Origin: a virus
IMG/VR virus record: IMGVR_UViG_3300044825_003138
Span: 1 to 47,187 of that record
Strand: one strand, 5' to 3'
Length of the DNA: 47,187 nucleotides
Shown: positions 5,130-47,187 of the stretch, piece by piece
Numbering within the stretch: position 1 is the stretch's first letter
How the letters are laid out: each line of letters starts with the position of its first letter
Notes under the pieces: generated by a model
What the model was told of the DNA's origin: nothing
Seen by the model: only the letters and a program-made list of their open reading frames with translations
Database searches by the model: none
Made by a program: the position numbers and the translations under genes

Positions 5130-7364
5130 ATGGCGGCTGATACTCTGGGCGTTCGTCAGCGGTTCACTGAGATCCTAGAAGCTTCTAGGACTCAAGACCG
5201 CTCGCGCCAAGCCGCCACCATGGTTGTGCTTGGGCACATTCAGCAGATGACACTGCTGATGATTAAGAAAGGCTTGTTTTTCTACTGTGAACAGGATACA
5301 TACAGAGCTAGAACGCAGTTCCTTCAGGATCTTATTGATTTAAATAAACTTGATATCCGTTTTCCGGCGATTATTCGTAATTTCCTTATCGACGGCTGTG
5401 GGCTTTTCTATTTTCGACCAGACCCCAAACTTAAATATCAAATTTACTTTTTCACCAAAGATCAGTACCGGGTATATCACGATATTAACGGTAATATAGA
5501 AGAAGTTGTAATTATCTACAGCTACAAGGTTCGCAACACGACACTAGGTCTACCTTCCGATAGTTATGGGATGAACGAACGGTATGTTCGTATTTCCATT
5601 ACTAATGATCGTATTGATGAATTCGAAGCTAATACAGAACTTAGTTTCGAGTTAGAGCCAGGGGCTGTCCTTACTCCTAAAAACAGCCGCCCCAATACTC
5701 TGGGGTTTATTCCAGCTGTTGAAGTTTTAAACAAACCAAACAGCAGCGGCACAGAGGGCGAAGGTGAGTTTGAGCCCTTCATGGAGCAAATTGTGCTTCA
5801 TGATCAGATGATGCGCAACATTGCCAAGAACATCGAGTTCTTTGGTAATCCGACGCTCATCAGTTCGCGTCCACGTAGTGATCTGGTCGAAGCTGCGGAT
5901 GAAGGACGTACATTCCGACCGACTATCAGTAGCCAAAGTGGTTTCGCTGGTCGGGACACACCGTCGACTCGGGTGTCGGAGCCTTTCGGTTCTGGCTCCA
6001 CCCTGGGCGGCCTAAAAGTTCCTCGGGTTATTGCGAACATCGAACCCAATGACCGTGTGGGCTATATGACGCCCGACCCGGTTAACGGGGATATGAATCG
6101 TTACGCATTGTTGCTTCGTGAAGAAATTCGTACGGCATTAGGCGGTGTTGATGAGATTTCGATCTCAGCCGGTGCTACTGCAACAGAAATTAAAGGTTTG
6201 ATGGGTCGCGCTCAAGCGACTGCTTTGCGGAAAAATAAAAGCTTTTTGACGTACGGTTTTTGTCGTTTGTTGGAAATGATCATCTTCCACCAGGAAGAGA
6301 TCTTCCGTGAAAGCTTTATTGCGGTAACGGGGATGAAAGCCCCTAAACCTCCTAAAGAACAAACCGCGGAAACTGTTGAGAAATATCAAATTTCTCAAAA
6401 CAAGTTTGAAGCAAAAGTCGAAACAGAAATAAGGAAATCCTTAGAGAACAACGATGTTCCTTCCGGGGTTTATGGTCTGCCTCCTGACGGAAATCGTGAT
6501 GTTACTTACAGATTCCAGGGCGATGTTTATGAGGATACGGCGTATGACATTAACCAGAAGTCAATCGTCGTACGAAACCTCCAAGAACTCGGGGTAGACA
6601 GCGTCGAAGCACTTAAGTATCTGTTCCCCGATAAGACAGATGCTGAACGTGGTGAGATGTTGAAGGGATTCCCCTTCCGCATGATTCAACAAACGCAAGG
6701 CGCATTCCAGCAATTTTTAGTATTATTAAGTCAGATGTTGCAGACGCCACATCCCCTTGCGCCGAACCAACCCTTAGCGGCTGACCCTCGGCTAAACCTG
6801 ACCGGCCTGTTATACAGGACGTTCGATCACCTTGCGCAAGAACTGACTTACTCGGGCAGCTATGAGCCAGCAGATCCCAGCTTCGATCCCGAGCCCGGTC
6901 TCCCCGGCGGTAGCGGCCCCTCAGGCAGCACCCTCGGCGGATATGGGCTCAACAGCCTACCCGCAGTGGGTAGCCAATACCCAGGGGGTGCCTTCGGTGG
7001 CTATGCCCCAAATGCAGTCGCCGGCAACACCGGTTACGGCCCCTTCTACCAGCAACCAGTACAACCAGTCTCCGTCAGCCTCCTCCCCGTCCAACCCGTG
7101 GGAAGCAGCGATGGGCAGCCTGGAACGGGTGGTTTCTCGGATCTCCCCGTCCCCCAGCCAGGCACAACAGTATCCTCAGTACCAAATGGTGCCGCAGGAT
7201 ACTCAACAGTACAGTCAGAATTTACAGGCCCAACCCTGGCTGTACCAAGCGCCTACGGATCAGCAGATCTCGTACAACAGCGCGTATACAATCCCGACTT
7301 CCTATCCGACTTCTACGGAAGCGCAACCCGCTCAACTAAGCGAGGAAACAAGCGCCGTAGTTAA
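5130..7364 (+). CDS. Portal protein
   Basis: Protein of 744 residues from ATG 5130. It follows the terminase cluster and precedes scaffold and capsid genes, the usual position of the portal ring that gates DNA entry. The wing/stem region is recognisable: LIDGCGLFYFRPDP, TKDQYRVYHDINGN, and the long GDMNRYALLLREEIRTALGG-type helix followed by ATEIKGLMGRAQATALRKNK. The last 167 residues are rich in Pro, Gly, Ser and Gln, end in KRGNKRRS, and are encoded in the same DNA as the next gene's N-terminus. The fold call is by pattern and context, not by search. Confidence 0.85.
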   Translation: MAADTLGVRQRFTEILEASRTQDRSRQAATMVVLGHIQQMTLLMIKKGLFFYCEQDTYRARTQFLQDLIDLNKLDIRFPAIIRNFLIDGCGLFYFRPDPKLKYQIYFFTKDQYRVYHDINGNIEEVVIIYSYKVRNTTLGLPSDSYGMNERYVRISITNDRIDEFEANTELSFELEPGAVLTPKNSRPNTLGFIPAVEVLNKPNSSGTEGEGEFEPFMEQIVLHDQMMRNIAKNIEFFGNPTLISSRPRSDLVEAADEGRTFRPTISSQSGFAGRDTPSTRVSEPFGSGSTLGGLKVPRVIANIEPNDRVGYMTPDPVNGDMNRYALLLREEIRTALGGVDEISISAGATATEIKGLMGRAQATALRKNKSFLTYGFCRLLEMIIFHQEEIFRESFIAVTGMKAPKPPKEQTAETVEKYQISQNKFEAKVETEIRKSLENNDVPSGVYGLPPDGNRDVTYRFQGDVYEDTAYDINQKSIVVRNLQELGVDSVEALKYLFPDKTDAERGEMLKGFPFRMIQQTQGAFQQFLVLLSQMLQTPHPLAPNQPLAADPRLNLTGLLYRTFDHLAQELTYSGSYEPADPSFDPEPGLPGGSGPSGSTLGGYGLNSLPAVGSQYPGGAFGGYAPNAVAGNTGYGPFYQQPVQPVSVSLLPVQPVGSSDGQPGTGGFSDLPVPQPGTTVSSVPNGAAGYSTVQSEFTGPTLAVPSAYGSADLVQQRVYNPDFLSDFYGSATRSTKRGNKRRS

Positions 7365-8245: not shown

Positions 8246-8257
8246 ATTTAAAAGTTT

Positions 8258-8263
8258 TATAAT
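8258..8263 (+). promoter_or_regulatory. Candidate -10 element (TATAAT)
   Basis: A perfect TATAAT 24 bases before the ATG at 8287, inside an AT-rich patch following a stop codon. No good -35 hexamer is present at the normal distance. Similar isolated TATAAT boxes occur at 30048 and 39235, each about 20 bases before a start. Whether they are promoters is untested. Confidence 0.35.
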
Positions 8264-8286
8264 ATATGTAACTCCCAGGGGCCGTC

Positions 8287-9033
8287 ATGTACACGCCGTT
8301 AAGTAATTGGCGTTATGACAGCGGTTTCCACAGGATTCAGAGCGGGCCGGATCACGAAGGTTACCGTGTCGTCAGCTCCGGAATCGTCGATACGGGAGCA
8401 GATATCGGAATTATTGCGCCGGGGGCTCCTAATAGCGGACTCTGGTACAACACAGATGATTGGCGGGCGGTACCAAGCGCTGTTTCCGGTTATTGGACCA
8501 ATTATTCGGATGTTGACTACGCCCCTAGCGGCGCTTTAAGCAGTTACGTGGGGTATCGCCCGCTGGGCGTTTCGACGATCGCTAATGCAAAAGTTTCTAC
8601 GTCTTATGGACCTCAATTTGGGTTGAGGACCACCGGGCAATCTACGTATTTCAACGGTGTTGCACCGGCATCTCAAGCGTACACGCCATACAACACTCCC
8701 GATGAAAACACGGCAGCTCAGGGATATACCGGAGGGGGTGTAACTCACGGTCGGTATGAGGGAGGCATTCTCACGAATCCGACTAACGACACCTCAGGAT
8801 CCCGTGCCGCGTGGATCTACAACCCCCCTGTTTACTGCAAAACCTACACTGAAACGGTGCGCAGTACGGCTCCTGGTTTGATGTCCACGGCTCTTCGGTA
8901 CATATACCGCGGTAAAGCCGGAACGTATGTCTCCAACTTCGCGGCCATTTATCACCAGCTGCCCGAAGGTGTTAGGTCGATGGTGCGCACATATTCGCCT
9001 ACTGTTAATTCCAGTAACCAAAAGTCAATCTGA
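8287..9033 (+). CDS. Putative virion protein upstream of the capsid gene (248 aa)
   Basis: ATG 8287 preceded by CAGGGG. The 248-residue protein is rich in Gly, Ser, Thr, Tyr and Asn, with few charged residues and no long helices, as in beta-rich structural proteins. Segments include SGLWYNTDDWRAVPS and GGVTHGRYEGGILTNP. It lies alone between the small basic genes and a terminator, just before the major capsid gene. A head decoration or minor virion role is inferred; no family is recognised. Confidence 0.7.
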   Translation: MYTPLSNWRYDSGFHRIQSGPDHEGYRVVSSGIVDTGADIGIIAPGAPNSGLWYNTDDWRAVPSAVSGYWTNYSDVDYAPSGALSSYVGYRPLGVSTIANAKVSTSYGPQFGLRTTGQSTYFNGVAPASQAYTPYNTPDENTAAQGYTGGGVTHGRYEGGILTNPTNDTSGSRAAWIYNPPVYCKTYTETVRSTAPGLMSTALRYIYRGKAGTYVSNFAAIYHQLPEGVRSMVRTYSPTVNSSNQKSI

Positions 9034-18679: not shown

Positions 18680-19345
18680 GTGACTTCAACACCCGTTATT
18701 CTTCTCCTAAAACGATCAGGTCAGTCTTCTGATCGTCCTCAAACTAGCGTTGTTCAGAACGGCGAGCTTGCTATCGCCGTGGGCGCCGCAGATCCGGGTC
18801 TATATTTCGAAGACTCTGCCGGAAGCATCCGAAAAATCGGTCCTTCGCACTACGGAACAACTGCGCCTAATTCCACGCCTGTTGGTTTAGCCGGAAACTC
18901 CGTTGGTGAGCTGTGGGCAGATAGTTCTACAGGAAGTTATTACTTAAAAGTCTGGACTGGCGGCGCCTGGCAAAAGGTAGGTGCCGGCTTTGCGGATTCA
19001 GCTACTACCGCAACCACGGCAACTACAGCTACCTTTGCTACTCAGGCTTCTACAGCTACCCTTTCTTCTGGAACGATTCTGGCTTCGGGTGCTGTATTTT
19101 CCCGAACAGCAACTTTAGCTTCGGGAACAATTTTAGCTTCAGGTGCTTTATTTGCTAATACAGCAACTTTAGCTTCGGGAGCAATTTTAGCTTCTGGAGC
19201 CATTCAGAGTTCCACGGTGGTCTTAAGCGGACTCCCTAATCCCGTTCTAAATCCGTCCGGAACTCTGATTTATCAGGTTCAGCCGTCTGGTGTTTTCGCA
19301 GCCGGTCTGTATGTTCGAGCTACCGATACTTGGCTCCTTGTTTAA
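18680..19345 (+). CDS. Repeat-containing tail fibre protein (221 aa)
   Basis: GTG start immediately after the previous TAA. The N-terminal segment VVQNGELAIAVGAADPGLYF, then GSIRKIG, and YYLKVWTGGAWQKVG matches phage fibre adaptor domains that anchor to the tail. Next come three 18-residue TATLASGTILASGALF-type repeats and a C-terminal domain ending GLYVRATDTWLLV. The repeats probably form a triple-stranded rod. The stop overlaps the end of the converging Dps gene by four bases. Confidence 0.78.
   Translation: MTSTPVILLLKRSGQSSDRPQTSVVQNGELAIAVGAADPGLYFEDSAGSIRKIGPSHYGTTAPNSTPVGLAGNSVGELWADSSTGSYYLKVWTGGAWQKVGAGFADSATTATTATTATFATQASTATLSSGTILASGAVFSRTATLASGTILASGALFANTATLASGAILASGAIQSSTVVLSGLPNPVLNPSGTLIYQVQPSGVFAAGLYVRATDTWLLV
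19052..19213 (+). repeat. Three 54-bp tandem coding repeats
   Basis: Three consecutive 54-base units encode TATL(S/A)SG(T/A)ILASGA plus four variable residues. The period is a multiple of three, so copy number can change without breaking the frame and would alter fibre shaft length. Confidence 0.85.
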
Positions 19346-19881
19346 GGACGCAAAGTGCTCTTGAGGAACCACGAGGCCTTGAACATCATCCCTACGAGTT
19401 CCGCCAAGTAGTTCTCAATATCTGGAGCATCGACTTCCTTTGCAATCTTTTGCAGATCTTTGGAAGTCATTCCGCAGGTCTCTAAATTCTTCAGATAAAC
19501 AGTAAGTCCTTCACGGGTTTCATAAGCTTTTACATGTTTAAAGCCTTTGTAAGCGCTCAGTAAACCGCGCTCACACATAGGCATCAGAAAATCCATTGTG
19601 CGCACAAATTCGGCGATCTGGTCGAATTGCTCGATATGCGCTCCGTACTGTTCTTTCAGGAACTCATGAATCGGCAGAAACAGAGGACCTTCGACGTTCA
19701 GATGGAGTAAATGGCTTTGAACATAAAGTTGATGTAAATAAGAAGATAAAGACACCAGTCCAGAAATTAAATCCTCGACTGATGCCTTGTTCCCCTCGTC
19801 CCCCGTCTCCGGCTCTTCAAACATCTGCTCAGAAGCCTCTTGCGGCGCAGGCGTGGTGCTGAAAGAACCGGAGAACGTCAT
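19342..19881 (-). CDS. dps: Dps-family ferritin-like protein
   Basis: Protein of 179 residues. After a 30-residue acidic disordered N-terminus it shows the Dps ferroxidase pattern: H60 in LLHLNVEGPLF, H72 in PIHEFL, D87 and E91 in FDQIAEF. The spacings H-12-H-15-D-4-E equal those of E. coli Dps (H51, H63, D78, E82). The C-terminal KASWFLKSTL helix also fits. Dps dodecamers oxidise and store iron and protect DNA. The usual tryptophan after the first histidine is leucine here, and the DNA-binding lysine tail is absent, so iron/peroxide handling is more likely than DNA coating. Confidence 0.82.
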   Translation of the reverse strand: MTFSGSFSTTPAPQEASEQMFEEPETGDEGNKASVEDLISGLVSLSSYLHQLYVQSHLLHLNVEGPLFLPIHEFLKEQYGAHIEQFDQIAEFVRTMDFLMPMCERGLLSAYKGFKHVKAYETREGLTVYLKNLETCGMTSKDLQKIAKEVDAPDIENYLAELVGMMFKASWFLKSTLRP

Positions 19882-20666: not shown

Positions 20667-20921
20667 ATGGCCTCCAAGCGTGATTCGGAGCACACAGGGA
20701 ACTTAGCCTGCGGTTTGACGCTAGAGGACGAGTTCGTACTTACACGCATTCGTACTAAAGCACACACACTACATAGTAAGGATCGCGATAATTATCTCTG
20801 GGATAAAGTGTTTAAGTTGATCTGCCGAGAGAGGGCGTATAAAACAGTAATGGCTGAAGTGGGCATCGCTGTGGATACAAACATGAAGTTATTTGATGAC
20901 GAAGAACTGAAAGAAAGTTGA
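20667..20921 (+). CDS. Hypothetical small protein (84 aa)
   Basis: ATG start after a 110-base gap in which I see no gene. The protein reads MASKRDSEHTGNLACGLTLE and later LWDKVFKLICRERAYKTVMA, helical and moderately charged. Related small proteins with a CRER...VM segment occur in cyanophages to my memory, without a known role. No domain assigned. Confidence 0.7.
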   Translation: MASKRDSEHTGNLACGLTLEDEFVLTRIRTKAHTLHSKDRDNYLWDKVFKLICRERAYKTVMAEVGIAVDTNMKLFDDEELKES

Positions 20922-33872: not shown

Positions 33873-34757
33873 CTAGGGCCCTTTTAATTTATTAAACAGA
33901 TCTGTTGTTTGCTGCTGCCATATAAATTTCCAGTGTTTCCAGAATTTTTGACATAATTCCTGGGTTTCTGTGTACTTATCCGTTTGTTCAATTTGTTGCA
34001 GCGTTTCGACCGCAGCTTCCCACGTATCCTCACAGACGAACGGCAACGTGGGCTCACCCAGGAACACACCCTGCCAGTAAGACGGATGCAGATGCCAGTA
34101 TCCGGTGTTTCTCACGCAGACTGGGACTGATCCCGCTTCAAGCGCTTCGTATAATCTAAATGAATCCATACTATCCTGTCCTGGAGGGCATAGAACATAT
34201 TTAGAACTCTGCAGTAACTTTGTGTACTCTTTAGTTTGCAAACCGTCCACAGCTCCGAAACCGCTGCATGTGTGAACCTTATTAGGCGTTAAAACATCGA
34301 GTTTTTCTATTATATTTTTTCGTTCGCCGTGAAGGGTTCCTGCAAACGACCAGAGCAGATCCTTTGAAGGTTGATTTTGTAAGTTTTTAACTAAGCCTAT
34401 TTTATAACCTAAGCCGAATACGTTAACTCGCGGATGACCTAGAAGCATCGGATTTATATAGTTACGCATCAGCCCCACGCATTGCGGGTCGTGGATCCAT
34501 TCGCAAGAATCCCTTAAATTCTCGTCGCTAAGCAGCACAATCGCATATTTCTTTTGATTTGTTCTTAAACGATCTAAAACGCTACGATACGGAACTGCAT
34601 GGTTACAAATTAACACCGTATTTTCATCTGTCTTTATTTGATCTGCTTCAAACTCAACTTCTATGTAATCCTGAACCTGACTAAATAGAAACCTAAGCCA
34701 GTCAACCTCCCACAATGAGCTGTCCTTAGTGAGCCATTGCACTCGGGGGCGGTTCAT
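33873..34757 (-). CDS. Exostosin-like glycosyltransferase
   Basis: Start ATG 34757 gives 294 residues; an upstream extension to 34850 would overlap speD. The C-terminal SSKYVLCPPGQDSMDSFRLY then EALEAGSVPVCVRNTGYWHL is the exostosin/GT47 pattern (S.F.LCP.G...S.R..EA...G.VPV). The N-terminal part contains GLGYKIGLVK and LLWSFAGTLHGERK, also typical. It probably transfers a sugar to a glycan, and is the third glycosyltransferase in the window. Lies antisense beside the fibre cluster; an AGGGCCCT palindrome overlaps its end. Confidence 0.78.
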   Translation of the reverse strand: MNRPRVQWLTKDSSLWEVDWLRFLFSQVQDYIEVEFEADQIKTDENTVLICNHAVPYRSVLDRLRTNQKKYAIVLLSDENLRDSCEWIHDPQCVGLMRNYINPMLLGHPRVNVFGLGYKIGLVKNLQNQPSKDLLWSFAGTLHGERKNIIEKLDVLTPNKVHTCSGFGAVDGLQTKEYTKLLQSSKYVLCPPGQDSMDSFRLYEALEAGSVPVCVRNTGYWHLHPSYWQGVFLGEPTLPFVCEDTWEAAVETLQQIEQTDKYTETQELCQKFWKHWKFIWQQQTTDLFNKLKGP

Positions 34758-34836
34758 GACCTTTTGTGAGCAGGTAAGGACTGTAGCTGTTGTTTCGGGA
34801 AACCGCACTACAATTGAAACAGTTTGGGTGCGTTTG

Positions 34837-35196
34837 ATGGGCAGCGGCAAGCATTGTGTTCTGGAGCTTTACCGCGCCTCTGCGCAAAAACTTAACGACG
34901 AAGCTTTCATTCGCGATGCTTTGGCTGAGGCCGCCCGCGTGTCTCACGCGACTTTAATTGATATCCGAACCCATCCGTTCACCCCTCAGGGTGTCACCGG
35001 TTTTGCTTTACTCGCCGAGTCTCATATTTCGATCCACACGTGGCCCGAGCACGGATACGCCGCCGTCGATGTGTTTACTTGCGGTGAGAGAACGGATCCT
35101 GAGCTGGCTTGCTTGTTTTTGGCTGAAACTTTTGAAGCAGCCTCTAAGCACATTCTCACTCTTGATCGATATTTGCCCGATTTAATTCAAGTTTGA
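34837..35196 (+). CDS. speD: S-adenosylmethionine decarboxylase proenzyme
   Basis: Protein of 119 residues from ATG 34837, the usual length of the bacterial small-type enzyme. LLAESHISIHTWPEHGYAA holds the self-cleavage site E61-S62, where S62 becomes the pyruvoyl cofactor, and H63 and the later VDVFTCGERTDPE with C are conserved. The enzyme makes decarboxylated S-adenosylmethionine for spermidine synthesis. speD is a known cyanophage auxiliary gene. The gene starts 80 bases from the diverging glycosyltransferase start. Confidence 0.93.
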   Translation: MGSGKHCVLELYRASAQKLNDEAFIRDALAEAARVSHATLIDIRTHPFTPQGVTGFALLAESHISIHTWPEHGYAAVDVFTCGERTDPELACLFLAETFEAASKHILTLDRYLPDLIQV

Positions 35197-40122: not shown

Positions 40123-40845
40123 GTGGATCCTAAATTCAGGGTGGATGTGCTGAATCAAACAGTGCATCCGCAAACTCTCGTTTGGTTTGCCCTTCATCAA
40201 GATTATTCAGAGACTTACGTTTTTATCGAGGATCCTCCGAACGAGTCTAGAGCTGGCGAAGTCATCACAAAGCGGTTGCTCGCAGGTGAACGCGGGCATT
40301 ACGGTCCGCTAGAGCATCCATCCATCACATTCAGCTGCGGGTTTTTTCCTCACTCCGTGATGCAGCAGGCGCGCACGCACCGCGTGGCCGTGTCGTTTGA
40401 TGTTCAGTCCATGCGCTATACGGGCAATCGTATCTGCCAGGCTGCGGATGGTTTGGTTGATCTGGAAGACGTTTTTTATTTGCGCCCTGTAGGTACTTAT
40501 TCCGACCGCCAAGGAAAAAAATATACCTACACCGAGGAGCACCGCAGCGAAGATCTAGTTATCTGTAAAGCCGCTGCTCAGCGTTATTGCCATATGGTTC
40601 GCTATCTGGGGCACGCGGAAGAGCACGCGCGAGGCATTCTGCCCTTTGATTTCCGGCAGCACTTTGTCGTTACGTTCAGCATGCGCTCCTTCCTTCACTT
40701 CATGGATCTGCGCAGCAAGCTCGATGCTCAGGAAGAGATTCGCAATCTATGCGATCTGATGTGGCCGCACTTCACCGCGTGGGCACCTGAAATCGCAGCC
40801 TGGTACGAAAAGTCTCGCTTGCATAAAGCGCGGTTAGCTCCTTAA
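40123..40845 (+). CDS. thyX: Flavin-dependent thymidylate synthase
   Basis: GTG start. The protein of 240 residues carries the ThyX signature RTHRVAVSFDVQSMRY (from R84; R-H-R...S family motif), the preceding HPSITFSCGFFPHSVMQQAR, and the C-terminal LDAQEEIRNLCDLM. ThyX makes dTMP from dUMP using FAD and NADPH, supplying thymidine for phage DNA. It is a standard cyanophage auxiliary gene. The first histidine-arginine pair is RTHR rather than the most common RHR. Confidence 0.93.
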   Translation: MDPKFRVDVLNQTVHPQTLVWFALHQDYSETYVFIEDPPNESRAGEVITKRLLAGERGHYGPLEHPSITFSCGFFPHSVMQQARTHRVAVSFDVQSMRYTGNRICQAADGLVDLEDVFYLRPVGTYSDRQGKKYTYTEEHRSEDLVICKAAAQRYCHMVRYLGHAEEHARGILPFDFRQHFVVTFSMRSFLHFMDLRSKLDAQEEIRNLCDLMWPHFTAWAPEIAAWYEKSRLHKARLAP

Positions 40846-40898: not shown

Positions 40899-41492
40899 CT
40901 ATAGCAGTTTTGTCCAGGGATCTACGGATTCTTGGGCATTTTCTTTTTTGGGAACCATCGGCGCTTGCGGCTTAGGCATTGCGGGCATCTGCATGAGGAT
41001 GCTCTGCATTGTCGCCACCTGTTGCTTGAGAGTCGTGTTTTCGGCGACTAGAGCTTCGGCTTGGTTGCGTGCCCACGCTGTGGCGTTAGCTGTGAGTTGA
41101 TCTAGGACGTTCTCCGGGTGCGGAAACTTGTAAAACGTACCCGCCTCTGTCGAGACCTTTTGTCCCCCTTGGTTTTCGGCCAGGGATTCCAGAAAGGTTT
41201 CGATCCGCTCTAGGTCTACGCCTGTTTCGAAAGCAAGCTCTTGGGGAACCAGCATCCCCATGTTCTTTGTGTAGAGAGCTGTAAATTTCTGAGCGACTCT
41301 TAAGCTTTCCGCTCGATCTTCTTTTTGTTTCCTTGTTAACTCGCTTGCTGATGCGGCTCCGGCCAGCAACCCACCCGCAGCGGCAATCGCCGTGGACAGG
41401 TGGGCAGGCTGAACGAGAGCAACGGTGAAGGTCAGCACACCGCCGAACAGCAAGGTTGCGCCGTTAAGCAGACTCGACGGGGATTTGATCAT
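40899..41492 (-). CDS. Membrane protein with cytoplasmic coiled region (197 aa)
   Basis: ATG 41492 is preferred; a GTG at 41522 would extend it by ten residues into the primase gene. N-terminal segments SLLNGATLLFGGVLTFTVAL and ALVQ...STAIAAAGGLLAGAAS give two membrane helices. The rest is cytoplasmic-like, with VAENTTLKQQVATMQSILMQ and a proline-rich MPAMPKPQAPMVPKK. It overlaps the primase 3' end, so the two are coupled. Could anchor replication to membranes; this is inference. Confidence 0.65.
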   Translation of the reverse strand: MIKSPSSLLNGATLLFGGVLTFTVALVQPAHLSTAIAAAGGLLAGAASASELTRKQKEDRAESLRVAQKFTALYTKNMGMLVPQELAFETGVDLERIETFLESLAENQGGQKVSTEAGTFYKFPHPENVLDQLTANATAWARNQAEALVAENTTLKQQVATMQSILMQMPAMPKPQAPMVPKKENAQESVDPWTKLL

Positions 41493-44232
41493 GAGCTTCG
41501 AAGGCCGGTTTCCAGAGAGCACTGTCAGGGTTAGAAGCCCACTCGACCGGAGACGGTAAGCGGTTTGAACCGGCCGCCGCTCGATCGGTCGAGGGGTCGT
41601 ACGGCTTCAATCGTAGTCCGGTGAATACGGCTTTGCCATTCACAAACTTAGGCCCAACACCCTCGACCTTGAGCACGTTCCTAATGGTTTCTTTCAATCG
41701 GTCAACGAAGCGAGGTTTTGCTGAGTGCTTGTATCCGTTTGATTTGCAGAAATTGACGTAGCTCGCATACAATTCTGTGTATGCGTTTTTAACGAACATA
41801 CCCTTCTCAGCCTCGTCCGTGTTGGGTCTGAAAGCACCAGCTCCGATCAACCCGTGGCTATTAGGTGCGTACATCGTGCACTCCGCTAGCCAAGCCACAT
41901 ACGGATTGTTGAAGATCAGCGCTTCGAGGTTGGTCGCGTTGAGCGAAGGAACGTGCTTAACGGGGTTAGCCAGCACGTCGCGCATTTCATCGAAGGGCAT
42001 ATCGAGAGCCCAGGAGACCACACCGCTCAGCTCGGGGACAAGGTCGCCCTCCAATCGATCTGCGTATACGTTCAGAAGGTCGCGCCGCTGGGACGCCGGT
42101 ACGACCTTGTCCATAATGATCGTTAGGCGGCGACGCTCTAGACCGCTGCTGATGTCCGAGGAGCTGATATGCTCGTTAGATGCGATACAGACCAGTACTT
42201 CTGGCTTGAAGTTAATTACTTCTTTACCATATTTACGCTCAGCTCTCAGCGTATCTGATGCGGACGTAATCTTTTTTAGAACATCTAAGCGTTTGTTAAA
42301 GTTAGCCTCGTCTGTAAGTAGCAGAAGTTTCTTGCCAATTAGGTTGTAGCATTCAAACTTATTTGTTTCGATCGTTTCCAGGTTACTGGTGTGAGTACCG
42401 GAGAACCCAGCTAGTGCAATCAACAGCTGCTGCATTGTTGATTTACCTGTTCCACCAGGACCGACGAGGTGGAGGAAACGCTCCCCCGTGGTGTACCCCG
42501 TCAGAAGCGCACGGCAAAACGCCCGAATGATGATCTTCTTGTCCCGCCCGATGCACGAGTCCAACCACGCGTGGAAGTTTGGACACTGAGCGGCTTTGTC
42601 GTACGGAAACGCGAGCTTGCTGCGTAGATAGAGCTCTTTCTGGCTGCCCTCCTGGAACCCCATCGAGTTCCCGTCTAGGACACCGTTTTTGAAGGGGATC
42701 TGCCCTTTGCTGCTGCTCCAGATGGACACCCGTCCACCGTTCACAGATTTAAGCAGTTTGCCTTTGAGGATCTGGAAAACCGAGCTAACGGTCGATGCGC
42801 TGTAGCGAGGCATCACACCCGCAGCTACAAATGTATCTAGTGTTTTTATAATCCTTCGTTTGATGTGCTGTTCGTCTTGTACGTACCAGATACCTTCGTC
42901 TACGTCGTATGTGAAGAACTCATCCAAAGAGGAGTCAAACAGAAATTCATTACCGTAATTATTGACGATGATATCTGCGACATCGTTCTCAGAAAATTGA
43001 CGGTTTCCCTGCTGCAGCTGGACCAGCTGAGCCGGAGTCGACGGCGTGGAGGCCATGGGATCGGGGGGTGTAGATGTTGATGTTGGTGTTGCTGCCGGTT
43101 TCGTATCCATCTCTCGAACTAAATCGTCGAAAGTGAGTACGGAGTTGGCTGGCTTTGGTTTTTTCGACGCGATTTCTGTACGTACATTGTCCGTACACTT
43201 TGCTTCGAAAATTTCTCTGTGAGTGCTCTTAAGTCTCTTCCAGGCAGCTAAAGACCCATCGTCTGACGCCATGACCACAGCGGGCTGCAGCGTTTCAGGA
43301 TCTGTGATGCTGTTCAGGATCCGGTTGAATTTGCCATCCAGCACAGGGTCGTATTCGTAGACATTCTCGAACACCCGGTGTGCGGTTGTCAAGGGCTGTT
43401 CGCGTGTCGCAATGCCTTGAGCGTTCAGCCAGTTGCTCCAGCCGATGATTTCCTTGAGGGCAATCGCCAGCGCAAAGGAGCGGTCTTCAACTTCTTCGCC
43501 ATCCAGCATTGACCGGACTGTGCTGCTGACCAGGCGTTCGAGGTCAACCCCCTCCGGCGATTGCTGCGTGTTTAAGTGCTGCTCCGCATCCCGTACCGCC
43601 TCTTCCGGAGGAGGCAGCGTGGCATATACAGCGTATGCCTCATCAATCTTAGATGCCGGTATGAATTTATCTGTGACTACCAGTAAGCTAGAAGTTCCTT
43701 TTCCGCCGTAAAATAAATTGACGGCTTGGGTAGCACGCCTGTCCGATCCTGGTATTTGTTGCGCAATGTGCCTGGTAAACCATTGGTAGAACCCGGCGTC
43801 GATGATTGGTTTCTCTAAACCGAACACCAAACGAAACCTAGGCCAAGTCTCTGTGTGAGACGGAGACAGGTAGGCGAGACTCAGATATTTATTACAGATG
43901 TTTAATTCTAGTGCCTGAGCTACGTCCAGTTCTTGCTTTTGTATCTTGTTGCCGTCTTTATCTTTTCCATCTGCTTGGTTGTCGATGTCAATGATGATTA
44001 AACCGGCTTTGATTGCACCGGTATTGCCCTCGCGTCTTCGCCCATCGACGAGGTGCCAGGCACATAAGCCAGCTTGCTGCGTGGTGACAGCATCAGCTAG
44101 TGCCGCGATGTCCTTTTCTTGAGGAAGCCAGTTGTTGTTGAAAGCGGCGAAGTTGCCCCCCGCCGCGATCTTGCCCGTCGCAGGGTTGACGTACTCAGAG
44201 ACTGCGTAGTTGATTGAGAAGAAAAAGTCCAT
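41464..44232 (-). CDS. Primase-helicase (AEP/PrimPol-like plus D5-type SF3 helicase), 922 aa
   Basis: N-terminal ~280 residues resemble an archaeo-eukaryotic primase domain (GAIKAGLIIIDIDNQ with the acidic hhDhD motif, then SLAYLSPSHTETWPRFRLVF). The C-terminal part has a D5-type N-terminal region and an SF3 helicase: Walker A GPGGTGKST near residue 590, then KKLLLLTDEANF, and the sensor IASNEHISSSD. Such proteins prime and unwind DNA in phage and plasmid replication. A proline/threonine linker (PAATPTSTSTPPDP) joins the halves. It anchors the replication module. Confidence 0.88.
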   Translation of the reverse strand: MDFFFSINYAVSEYVNPATGKIAAGGNFAAFNNNWLPQEKDIAALADAVTTQQAGLCAWHLVDGRRREGNTGAIKAGLIIIDIDNQADGKDKDGNKIQKQELDVAQALELNICNKYLSLAYLSPSHTETWPRFRLVFGLEKPIIDAGFYQWFTRHIAQQIPGSDRRATQAVNLFYGGKGTSSLLVVTDKFIPASKIDEAYAVYATLPPPEEAVRDAEQHLNTQQSPEGVDLERLVSSTVRSMLDGEEVEDRSFALAIALKEIIGWSNWLNAQGIATREQPLTTAHRVFENVYEYDPVLDGKFNRILNSITDPETLQPAVVMASDDGSLAAWKRLKSTHREIFEAKCTDNVRTEIASKKPKPANSVLTFDDLVREMDTKPAATPTSTSTPPDPMASTPSTPAQLVQLQQGNRQFSENDVADIIVNNYGNEFLFDSSLDEFFTYDVDEGIWYVQDEQHIKRRIIKTLDTFVAAGVMPRYSASTVSSVFQILKGKLLKSVNGGRVSIWSSSKGQIPFKNGVLDGNSMGFQEGSQKELYLRSKLAFPYDKAAQCPNFHAWLDSCIGRDKKIIIRAFCRALLTGYTTGERFLHLVGPGGTGKSTMQQLLIALAGFSGTHTSNLETIETNKFECYNLIGKKLLLLTDEANFNKRLDVLKKITSASDTLRAERKYGKEVINFKPEVLVCIASNEHISSSDISSGLERRRLTIIMDKVVPASQRRDLLNVYADRLEGDLVPELSGVVSWALDMPFDEMRDVLANPVKHVPSLNATNLEALIFNNPYVAWLAECTMYAPNSHGLIGAGAFRPNTDEAEKGMFVKNAYTELYASYVNFCKSNGYKHSAKPRFVDRLKETIRNVLKVEGVGPKFVNGKAVFTGLRLKPYDPSTDRAAAGSNRLPSPVEWASNPDSALWKPAFEAHDQIPVESA

Positions 44233-44305: not shown

Positions 44306-45082
44306 TCACTTATTGGCAGATTCATAAAATTGCCGCAAAACCTGCAGCCATTGTTCAACGTGTTTTTCGACTTGTGCTCTACTAAAAGTGAAAACTTGAA
44401 CGGGGTACTCTGGCAGTGGAGTCGATACGATTATCTGGGTCTTGTCTATTTTTATGTCTAGACAAGTTTCCGCTGCCAGTGTGTAAGCAGCCAATTGTAG
44501 CTGCGTTTTCTTTAATTTAAAGACTCCGCTTATTAAGGATTTTTTGACGTTATCTGGAAGGTTATCTTTTGCTTTTGGGAAGTTAGCCGAGTAGGGACCT
44601 ACTGAAGTTTTGAAGTCGCCGAGAATAATTTCTCCATTTACATCTCTGTAAATGATGTCACAGCAACCGGCATATCCGTGACCTGTATTTTCGTCGTAGT
44701 AATGTATCCTGCCGATACCGTCTTCTCCGACATACCGAGACCACTGAGGTTGGTTGTACGGCTTTTCACTCCATAAAACGGTTCCTTCGTCCAGAAGTTC
44801 ATCTAATTTTTCCGGCATACCTTTCCAGTATGCGAGAACATCATCCGCAGGGTGTACAGCTAGCCCTCTGATGTAGTTCTCTACAGCGTTGTGGATGAAG
44901 GAACCTCGCGCAGCAGCGTTTTCTAGCGCACCAGGATTCATCAGATTCCAGTGCGCTAGTTTTTTACGCGTTTCCTCCGTCTGCGTGGCCGATAGGACAC
45001 TTGTAACGGATGGGAGAGGTTTGGGTACTCCTGCGCAGTTGTAGTGCCTCAGGCCGTTTAGCGTAACTCTGGTTTGGGACAC
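44306..45082 (-). CDS. PD-(D/E)XK exonuclease, Cas4/RecB-like (258 aa)
   Basis: GTG start. H64 in GSFIHNAVENY, E106 in VLWSEKP, D142 in GYAGCCDIIYRD, and D156-x-K158 in IILGDFKTS give the RecB-family nuclease motif order, with LQLAAYTLAAE after it. Such enzymes resect DNA during recombination or degrade host DNA. The pair of cysteines C140-C141 might be incidental. The gene lies directly upstream of the primase-helicase on the same strand. Confidence 0.87.
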   Translation of the reverse strand: MSQTRVTLNGLRHYNCAGVPKPLPSVTSVLSATQTEETRKKLAHWNLMNPGALENAAARGSFIHNAVENYIRGLAVHPADDVLAYWKGMPEKLDELLDEGTVLWSEKPYNQPQWSRYVGEDGIGRIHYYDENTGHGYAGCCDIIYRDVNGEIILGDFKTSVGPYSANFPKAKDNLPDNVKKSLISGVFKLKKTQLQLAAYTLAAETCLDIKIDKTQIIVSTPLPEYPVQVFTFSRAQVEKHVEQWLQVLRQFYESANK

Positions 45083-45120: not shown

Positions 45121-45486
45121 TTAGAACGACATCTGAAACGGTCGAGAGTCTGTATCTTCGTCATCGTCATCGTCTTCATTCTGGTCCTGCTCAGTGCTTT
45201 CGTCTTCATCGGAATCCAAAAAGAATTCAGATTTTTGGTAATTAAAATCCCTGTTATGGCTGCTCAGCTCTTCGGCGAGGCAAAGACCTGCGCAATAAGA
45301 GTCGGTAATAATCTCCGCGCACTCGGAGGCAGATCTAGCGGTTCCCTCAGGTGAGACGCACTCCTGGAGGAGTTGTTCTGATACCAATAGGGCTGTAATT
45401 TTTTCGAGAAGTGTATTTGTTTTTGTGAGTTGATCCAGAACATCTCGTTGAAATTTGTCGAACTTTTGGCGGCGAGTCATTGTCAT
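45121..45486 (-). CDS. Acidic-tailed hypothetical protein (121 aa)
   Basis: ATG 45486 overlaps the previous stop (ATGA); a second ATG two codons on is an alternative. The N-terminus is a helical FDKFQRDVLDQLTKTNTLLE domain, and the C-terminal 36 residues are almost all D/E, ending RPFQMSF. An acidic tail ending in an aromatic residue is a feature of SSB and T7 gp2.5, which bind partners through it. No OB-fold is visible, so it is at most an analogue. Lies in the replication module. Confidence 0.65.
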   Translation of the reverse strand: MTMTRRQKFDKFQRDVLDQLTKTNTLLEKITALLVSEQLLQECVSPEGTARSASECAEIITDSYCAGLCLAEELSSHNRDFNYQKSEFFLDSDEDESTEQDQNEDDDDDEDTDSRPFQMSF

Positions 45487-46025
45487 GTTAAAGAGGGCAG
45501 AGGGTCGACACGGTCCCAGTCCAGACCAAAGGTTATCTGAGTTCCGTCGTGCCACTGCTCAGGGCGTTGGAAGACAAACCAGCAGCTGGTGACGGAATCC
45601 CGCGTGGAACCGATGGCTCGGAATTTAGGACGTGGATTGAGAACAATCATATTGCTGATCTTGTTTGCTAACAGAAAGCTTTTACGTTTGGCTACTGGTT
45701 CTATGAACGACAGCCTGTCTAGAACGGCTATACCTTGTGTTGCAATCTGAATACCGTATTCAAGTATATACTCTGTGTAGTCTCCTAAACCTGTTGTTGC
45801 TGCTATGACCCAATCAAACTTTTTTTCTTTCTGGCCGACCCACCAGACAGGATCCATTAGGTTTGTTTCGTCCTTGTTCTCGACGACGTTAAAGTTGTGA
45901 CGTCTGAGCTGGTCGCTCAATATCGACAGCGGATCGAATGGGACTAGAACTGAGCCTGTGATGAAACTGTGCTTTATCAACGCGTGGGTGACGCCGTTTG
46001 GGAGCTGATAGAAGGAGTCTGCCAT
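45483..46025 (-). CDS. Methyltransferase-like protein lacking the catalytic NPPY motif (180 aa)
   Basis: Reads like phage DNA methyltransferase-fold proteins: FDWVIAATTGLGDYTEYILE where NPP(F/Y) should follow the strand, then GIAVLDRLSFIEPVAKRKSF, MIVLNPRPKFRAIGSTRDSV and a WFVFQRP strand. The catalytic segment is replaced by AATTG (residues 75-79). It may be a structural or regulatory relative. Sits upstream of the acidic-tailed protein, and divergent from the NblA-like gene. Confidence 0.55.
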   Translation of the reverse strand: MADSFYQLPNGVTHALIKHSFITGSVLVPFDPLSILSDQLRRHNFNVVENKDETNLMDPVWWVGQKEKKFDWVIAATTGLGDYTEYILEYGIQIATQGIAVLDRLSFIEPVAKRKSFLLANKISNMIVLNPRPKFRAIGSTRDSVTSCWFVFQRPEQWHDGTQITFGLDWDRVDPLPSLT

Positions 46026-46117
46026 TGGTCTGGGTTTCGAGCTGTCAGAGTTTAACCAAAATTTCCGGTCTATCCGGTAAATGCTGCCTATTATGACGTC
46101 AGTGCATTCTGTAGATT

Positions 46118-46366
46118 ATGTTAAATCTGGAATGGCTTAATACAGAGCAGGAGTTTTTACACAAACGAGTTTGCGAAGATTTCGCCAAGCTTGATCGAGA
46201 GCAAATGAAAGTGGTTTTTGAATCTGTGCATAAACAGTATTTAGTTAGGAACAGTTTATTCTCTCGTCTAGTTTCTTGGTGCGCAAGGAATGGGGTTATT
46301 CTTCCTGCTTTTGATGAGTTGCTCTCTCCAAAAGAGGTTGCGCACCCGACCCTCTTAGAAGAATAA
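46118..46366 (+). CDS. nblA: NblA-like phycobilisome degradation protein (82 aa)
   Basis: The N-terminal ~55 residues follow the NblA family: TEQEFLHKRVCEDFAKLDRE then QMKVVFESVHKQYLVRNSLF, with the EQEF, L-REQ, and (Y/H)KQ(Y/L)-VR elements in the same order and spacing as cyanobacterial NblA. Here a 25-30 residue C-terminal extension (ARNGVILPAFDELL) is added. NblA binds phycobilisomes and guides their proteolysis. It is a single forward gene among reverse replication genes, with a terminator of its own. Confidence is limited because the family is short. Confidence 0.6.
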   Translation: MLNLEWLNTEQEFLHKRVCEDFAKLDREQMKVVFESVHKQYLVRNSLFSRLVSWCARNGVILPAFDELLSPKEVAHPTLLEE

Positions 46367-46371
46367 AAAAA

Positions 46372-46389
46372 AGCGGCCGTTAGACCGCT
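46372..46389. terminator. Hairpin between the NblA-like gene and the reverse replication gene
   Basis: AGCGG (46372-46376) pairs with CCGCT (46385-46389). Reverse-strand reading gives the hairpin followed by a run of T (8 in a row), ideal for ending the right-hand reverse gene; the forward side has CTTT only. Confidence 0.7.
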
Positions 46390-46416
46390 CTTTACCTTGG
46401 CTCAGATAACTCTAGC

Positions 46417-47187
46417 TTAAAAATCGATCCCCAGAGCTTTGGCTTGCTCTGCGGTTAGCTCGATTGGTTTTTTTGCTTTGGCGCTAGGCGGCTCATTTTC
46501 GACTTTTTCTTCTGCTTCCGCAGATTTCAAAGCCTTCGCTGGCGCCGCGCTAGCGAATGAGCGCTCTGGAGGGGTTCCTCTCTCAGCGGCGAATCGAGCT
46601 TTGATCTCGGTGTGATCCGCCCCCAGGGGTAGTTCCACTAAATCGGAGCCAGGGATATGGGACTTCAATGCGGATGCGCATAGATTCCCTCCCTTATCGA
46701 CAAGCCAGCTGTTGATATCCTCAATCAACTTTGTTTCTTCATCATTTGATGGCGGTCGATCCGAGAATTCGAGAGCGTTGAAGTTGATTTTCGCGCCGTC
46801 AGCACCGGTCATGGGATCGCGCTCATTGAAGCTGCGAGTCACGAATTTCGTCGTGGTAATGACTGATGCGCAGTTAATTCGATTGTTGTAGAGAGTTTGG
46901 AAATAACTAATGAAGTTCTTTTGCGAAGATTTACCCGAAATCATTGAGGTCGTGACGCAACGGGGCGGAAGCAACCTGTGATTTGGGCTCACTCCGATGT
47001 ATGCGATGCGCAAGAATTCTTCTTGATTGCGCATACCGAGGTTGCCAAAGTACGGAGTGAATCCGACTAAAACAAACTCGATTGGAATACCGTTGTCGTT
47101 TCGATCGACAATGGCAGAATCCGGGTCGACGTCGGACTTCCAGCGTCGGGCTTGGAGATCAATACGAAGTGTGTGCGGCGGTACGTT
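46417..47187 (-). CDS. Hypothetical replication-module protein, N-terminus outside window
   Basis: The frame is open to the right edge, extending the first visible ATG (47034) by at least 51 codons, so the start is outside. The body includes IPIEFVLVGFTPYFGNLG and LRIAYIGVSPNHRLLPPRCV, a globular mixed-fold domain; the C-terminus is a charged Ala/Lys/Glu linker ending in a conserved-looking AEQAKALGIDF peptide. A single-stranded DNA-binding or recombination role would suit the location but no motif proves it. Confidence 0.7.
   Translation of the reverse strand, partial: NVPPHTLRIDLQARRWKSDVDPDSAIVDRNDNGIPIEFVLVGFTPYFGNLGMRNQEEFLRIAYIGVSPNHRLLPPRCVTTSMISGKSSQKNFISYFQTLYNNRINCASVITTTKFVTRSFNERDPMTGADGAKINFNALEFSDRPPSNDEETKLIEDINSWLVDKGGNLCASALKSHIPGSDLVELPLGADHTEIKARFAAERGTPPERSFASAAPAKALKSAEAEEKVENEPPSAKAKKPIELTAEQAKALGIDF

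Follow-up and report, generated by a model that had tools for sequence, protein, structure and literature searches.

A gene in the window, NblA-A, is conserved, is under selection and keeps a fixed place in a phage lineage; by profile comparison its product is a divergent homolog of NblA, and the homology is statistically supported. The window is the whole stretch of DNA analyzed here, the 47,187 bases of virus record IMGVR_UViG_3300044825_003138, in which the NblA-A open reading frame, 46118-46366(+), starts with ATG and encodes 82 aa. We think it probable that the protein is a phage adaptor that would bring about dismantling of the phycobilisome by steering the host's phycobiliproteins to the ClpC protease. 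The same virus appears, from profile matches, to carry a second and different NblA-like gene, NblA-B. The features referred to below are as follows.

20667..20921, forward strand: NblA-B, second NblA-like gene, 84 aa, a separate family (PF04485, E 0.0027 in the record)
41464..44232, reverse strand: D5-type primase/helicase, reverse replication module (phrog_1156, E 9.2e-43; DUF5906, D5_N)
44306..45082, reverse strand: exonuclease-like gene, reverse replication module (phrog_298, E 1e-23)
45483..46025, reverse strand: diverging neighbor that in part resembles a DNA methyltransferase family (phrog_799, E 2.8e-6, residues 95-158); in 42/44 loci
46026..46117, no strand: intergenic region from which NblA-A and the reverse gene 45483-46025 diverge, partly conserved in relatives L010 and L017
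46118..46366, forward strand: NblA-A, divergent NblA-like gene (Pfam, 44 viral loci, hhalign, pS/pN)
46145..46273, forward strand: NblA core (residues 10-52 of NblA-A; positions 5-47 of the 50 in Pfam NblA)
46274..46366, forward strand: C-terminal part of NblA-A, residues 53-82 and stop codon (W54-C55, L62-P63 and L68 in 25/25)
46368..46393, reverse strand: terminator-like hairpin with a long T-run on the minus strand (scan and folding)
46417..47187, reverse strand: converging neighbor, open at the window's end; in 44/44 loci; no Pfam match at E 0.01

The sequence-only reading had proposed NblA from a pattern of residues, and every part of that pattern (E10-Q11-E12-F13, R27-E28-Q29 and K39-Q40-Y41-L42-V43-R44) is present in the open reading frame. 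Profile searches bear the identification out. The Pfam NblA model (PF04485) matches the protein at E 8.8e-5 with 23.3 bits, so that the HMM check proposed by the same reading returned the expected family and fell short of its curated cut-off of 25 bits; a search restricted to the window's record gave E 4.3e-6 and 23.5 bits. NblA is matched by 15/16 members of the NblA-A family, the next Pfam family by 3/16, and two distant members, in G316 and G319, reach 25.4 bits each, over the cut-off. Searched against 177,635 PDB sequences, the family profile placed an NblA crystal structure on top (3cs5, E 0.017). Profile-profile alignment by hhalign to 17 reference NblAs (16 of 28 parsed cyanobacterial sequences, together with that of phage Ma-LMM01) gave E 1.4e-5 and a probability of 80 over 47 ungapped columns; the score of 30.5 was reached by 0/200 column shuffles (maximum 20.8), and the reversed profile scored 12.3. 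Searches outside these profiles returned less: phmmer with the single protein found no NblA in the PDB, tblastn against phages gave chance-level matches only (for NblA-A, for a distant member of its family and for NblA-B), and the PHROGs search found no NblA, its best match (E 0.055) being to a family of unknown function.

Relatives of NblA-A were found at 44 distinct loci in viral contigs, in two overlapping scans (13 and 43 loci). They encode 16 distinct proteins including that of the window, to which the other 15 are 57-90% identical; all 16 begin with MLNLEW and share the M1 start. Against a relative with 90% identity (L010), pS is 0.713 and pN 0.059, values that we quote because dS was saturated in 5/9 of the window's comparisons for this gene. 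The selection ratios that could be computed range from 0.027 to 0.23 across relatives, and one relative (L001) differs by no amino acid change at all. Three neighboring genes compared between the window and L010 have pN values of 0.002, 0.017 and 0.022, so NblA-A changes faster than they do; among them, the diverging neighbor 45483-46025(-) evolves unusually slowly (pN 0.002 at pS 0.380). NblA-A is a real coding gene under strong purifying selection, not a chance open reading frame.

The two ends of the protein have fared differently. In the 25 aligned phage sequences E10, Q11, F13, H15, K24, L47 and F48 are invariant, and with E10 and Q11 the N-terminal L-x-x-E-Q (LTMEQ-type) motif is retained; toward the C-terminus W54, C55, L62, P63 and L68 are likewise found in 25/25. 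We take the two C-terminal phycobilisome-binding residues of NblA to be L51 and K53 of Anabaena NblA. This pair is not found as such in NblA-A, where L51 is present in 24/25 sequences and K53 in 1/25; in the 17 reference NblAs it is K53 that is invariant, and position 51 varies. The region of residue 53 is aligned ungapped by hhalign, and with a two-residue gap by MAFFT, which pairs the phage W54 with the reference tryptophan; the reference lysine is missing from NblA-A in both. Published work describes an N-terminal NblA motif that binds ClpC and a C-terminal motif that binds phycobiliproteins (PMC4103541), and names the N-terminal LTMEQ motif together with two C-terminal residues (PMC5083919).

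The phage proteins are also longer. The 16 distinct members span 81-92 aa, outside the usual 60 or so, versus 56-66 aa in 28 parsed cyanobacterial NblAs, a range that leans toward typical NblAs because 10 of the 38 cyanobacterial loci tried gave no NblA by our motif rule; longer cyanobacterial open frames did come up in a phylum-wide search of 146 genomes, because those frames were run from stop to stop. The earlier remark that a C-terminal extension is unusual for NblA thus agrees with the lengths, and with the conservation of W54-C55 and L62-P63 within the added part. Since the N-terminal motif is kept, K53 is missing and the proteins are longer, the alignments indicate an adaptor whose N-terminal end is conserved and whose C-terminal end is remodeled and extended (WC...LP...ELL). 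A different target or regulation, also raised in that remark, is plausible because the extension is conserved and a lysine invariant in the references is absent. The AF2 single-chain model, with a mean pLDDT of only 65.5, predicts helices at 4-22 and 27-58, as expected for a helix-loop-helix protein; with this low-confidence model Foldseek returned one chance-level match and VIA none with Z 2 or more.

A loose PF04485 search of the window's record pointed to a second place, 20715-20852(+) (E 0.0027), inside the gene that we call NblA-B; a transglycosylase/M23 gene lies downstream of it, on that strand too. Its relatives occupy 55 loci in viral contigs. The Pfam scan of the window's own NblA-B gave NblA at E 0.062; 23/26 aligned members match NblA (best E 0.0012), and every other Pfam family is matched by one member. 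Aligned to the reference NblAs by hhalign, the family gave E 1.5e-5, with a score that 0/200 shuffles reached. The case is weaker than that for NblA-A, because in the PDB profile search the NblA structure 1ojh ranks third, at E 1.1, behind two unrelated proteins. Helices are predicted at 19-34 and 38-65, and the motifs are L-T-L-E-D-E-F and E-R-A. The two families share a genome and a likeness to NblA, and they differ in family, motifs and genome place: NblA-A diverges from the replication module, NblA-B shares its strand with the structural genes, and hhalign found no match between their profiles (E 0.029, probability 1.7). Of 23 NblA-B-bearing records examined, most of them picked from the 55 by length and two of them known beforehand to carry NblA-A, 13 also carry NblA-A, a count that leaves out weak NblA-A matches with an internal stop, in G327 (E 0.006) and as a second match in G311 (E 0.011). 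All 7 of the 55 records that are at least 75 kb long carry both genes, and the shorter records may be fragments.

Both genes flanking NblA-A, 45483-46025(-) and 46417-47187(-), lie on the opposite strand, as the sequence-only reading had noted for the window, and this holds across the relatives. The upstream neighbor is on the opposite strand in 42/44 loci; in L032 and L038, the two exceptions, the contig starts 52 and 60 bases ahead of NblA-A. For the downstream neighbor the count is 44/44. Another 12 loci, including two from records that the 44 already cover, show the opposite-strand neighbor in 12/12 cases upstream and 11/12 downstream, with the one miss at a contig end; place and orientation are the same down to 43-58% identity. 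A Pfam search at E 0.01 with the product of 45483-46025(-) gave no match. In a more distant relative (L033) a minus-strand open reading frame of 117 aa, 8248-8601(-), overlaps the 3' end of NblA-A, and its product resembles a regulator that combines a zinc ribbon of the NrdR type with a helix-turn-helix.

The gene had also been credited with a terminator of its own, and this part of the description fares poorly. A terminator scan of the region found three sites where 2.3 were expected by chance, so that the count alone shows nothing. At the hairpin after the gene it lists two overlapping sites. The stronger, 46393-46368(-), has 11 pairs and a long T-run and lies just past the end of 46417-47187(-); the weaker, 46372-46389(+), has 5 pairs. 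Folded on the plus strand, 46350-46430 does not surpass shuffles (z -0.20), and in 6/6 sequences folded (the window and five relatives) the hairpin is kept with its A-run toward nblA, which puts the T-run on the minus strand. Because of where the T-run lies, the hairpin is best read as suiting the reverse gene 46417-47187 rather than NblA-A. A scan of 45400-47187 that covered promoters of the sigma-70 type returned 0 sites.

We also searched cyanobacterial genomes for NblA. None of eight Synechococcus/Cyanobium genomes has an NblA over the Pfam cut-off (one chance-level match, E 0.56), four other cyanobacteria in the same search gave clear matches, and across the phylum 58/146 genomes have one over the cut-off. 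Synechococcus CS-601 is described as having neither nblA nor nblB (PMC6337551). Absence at the Pfam level need not mean that the function is absent, because picocyanobacterial nblA genes are spoken of elsewhere (PMC9602691). The profile of NblA-A gave six pattern matches in a first scan of genome contigs, and no relative was confirmed; in 151 Cyanobium-family genomes it gave matches at E up to 1 in 15 genomes (best 0.06), which we read as chance, the two best containing internal stops and some others none. The NblA-B profile matched 2 of the 151 genomes (best 0.12), again read as chance.

In the reading that we favor, NblA-A would act as a small helix-loop-helix adaptor that binds host phycobiliproteins and, docking on ClpC, delivers them to the ClpC-type Clp protease. 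The phycobilisome would thus be dismantled during infection, with breakdown and bleaching as the presumed result, which would free amino acids and lower excess light absorption. The WC...LP...ELL extension and the absent lysine probably alter the contact with phycobiliproteins. Since the genome carries two separate NblA-like families, we conjecture that NblA-A and NblA-B probably act as partners, or else differ in their timing or in the antenna parts on which they act. A pair of genes of this kind brings to mind the heterodimer that NblA1 and NblA2 of Synechocystis reportedly form. Tentatively, and with much more doubt than belief, one may go further and see in the pair a two-component kit for antenna demolition, working as a heterodimer or on different phycobiliproteins at different times in picocyanobacteria that lack a canonical NblA, the virus supplying a degradation pathway absent in this form from the host. 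Phycobilisomes may make up as much as half of cyanobacterial soluble protein (PMC4103541), and phage nblA is reported to be expressed in infection and to cause loss of phycobilin when expressed in cyanobacteria (PMC9602691).

Other functions could be given to the same fold. The C-terminus might have been retargeted, with the fold and ClpC docking kept and some host protein that is not a phycobiliprotein sent to the Clp protease. An invariant N-terminal motif next to a C-terminal lysine missing in 24/25 sequences and a new conserved extension would suit such a change; the retention of L51 in 24/25 speaks against it, as do the published phage NblAs tested so far, which act on phycobilisomes (PMC9602691), and we regard it as unlikely. 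The missing lysine and retained N-terminal motif would also suit a dominant-negative form, an anti-adaptor that, by occupying either ClpC or the phycobilisome or by pairing with host NblA, blocks breakdown so that the antenna keeps working in infection. That is harder still to credit, given that the eight Synechococcus/Cyanobium genomes offer no Pfam-level NblA to block and that other phage NblAs give pigment loss, not protection (PMC9602691).

There is also the question of whether the gene is an NblA at all, or one recently acquired. An unrelated small helical phage protein, such as one that regulates the divergent replication module, could by chance resemble NblA, and the sub-threshold Pfam score, the lack of a Foldseek match, the empty single-sequence searches and the adjoining replication genes are what such a protein would give. 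It would not be expected to outscore every one of 200 shuffles, nor to yield NblA as the one Pfam family matched by most members and as the top structure in the PDB profile search; coincidence is accordingly a very improbable source of the likeness. The sequence-only reading had likened the gene to morons. A moron in our sense would be a host gene recently acquired, with its own promoter and terminator, in some of these phages only. The strand opposite to the neighbors and the weak plus-strand terminator site go with that view, and the one sign in its favor by our assessment is the lower G+C, 0.411 for NblA-A (GC3 0.390) versus 0.490 for the window, and lower also than in the neighbors compared. 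Synteny largely contradicts it: an opposite orientation that is fixed across relatives fits a moron poorly, and the stronger terminator sits on the other strand. Nor was presence found to be patchy, all 7 NblA-B-bearing records of at least 75 kb carrying the gene and the 44 loci having it in the same place, although these 44 were found through NblA-A itself. With no close cellular homolog confirmed in genome contigs, the moron reading is probably wrong, and we give it next to no credence. A putative adaptor for phycobilisome breakdown remains our preferred reading of NblA-A.

Phage nblA is well known (PMC4103541; PMC5083919; PMC9602691). For the group of phage S-EIV1, Table 2 of a 2017 survey gives only hli and ptoX as photosynthesis genes and no nblA (PMC5332604). 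Neither a phage with two NblA-like genes nor an NblA from an S-EIV1-related lineage turned up in a literature search whose coverage was partial and which leaves absence unproven. What was already known is thus phage NblA as such; in the literature searched we did not meet it in an extended form with two genes, and NblA-B is the main surprise. If the favored reading is true, a widespread S-EIV1-related phage lineage carries two antenna-degradation adaptors, and the conserved extension and missing lysine offer a natural variant series for how NblA chooses its target.

The virus has a relative among the phages of freshwater cyanobacteria: the nearest isolate found is S-EIV1, which infects Synechococcus. 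It provides the one match among 50,697 phage records to a 744-aa protein of the window (5130-7364), at 45.6% identity, and megablast of 22300-47187, about half of the window, against phages gave no match. The window also encodes a ferritin-like/Dps protein, 19342-19881(-), an S-adenosylmethionine decarboxylase, 34729-35196(+), and ThyX, 40123-40845(+); of these, the first two have matches in S-EIV1, where a FAD-dependent thymidylate synthase is annotated as well. The NblA-A profile found no match in S-EIV1, a distant relative. A hypothetical protein of that phage, AHV82245.1 (L191:894-1223, KJ410740 near 73893-74222), is NblA-like by profile, with a weak Pfam match of 16.2 bits and an hhalign E of 4.4e-5 to NblA (0/60 shuffles), and it resembles neither NblA-A nor NblA-B above shuffles.

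The marine cyanophage S-SCSM1 and the phage S-TIM5 are stated to carry nblA (PMC9602691). Pfam NblA has no match in either, nor in Syn5, chosen for comparison as a marine podovirus. ORF237 of S-SCSM1, phage-borne like NblA-A and annotated nblA, is a protein of 54 aa that does not rise above shuffles against the reference NblAs or against either of our families; NblA-A and NblA-B thus stand nearer to canonical NblA than it does. The freshwater phages Ma-LMM01 and PaV-LD also carry NblA, which clears the Pfam cut-off comfortably at 52.0 and 45.4 bits; in the Ma-LMM01 protein the extra length is N-terminal, before the core, whereas in NblA-A it is C-terminal. With the cyanobacterial NblA family (PF04485) NblA-A shares some 47 ungapped columns, the L-x-x-E-Q motif and, by its low-confidence model, a predicted helix-loop-helix; it differs in being longer, with the WC...LP...ELL extension, in lacking K53 in 24 of 25 sequences and in scoring below the Pfam cut-off.
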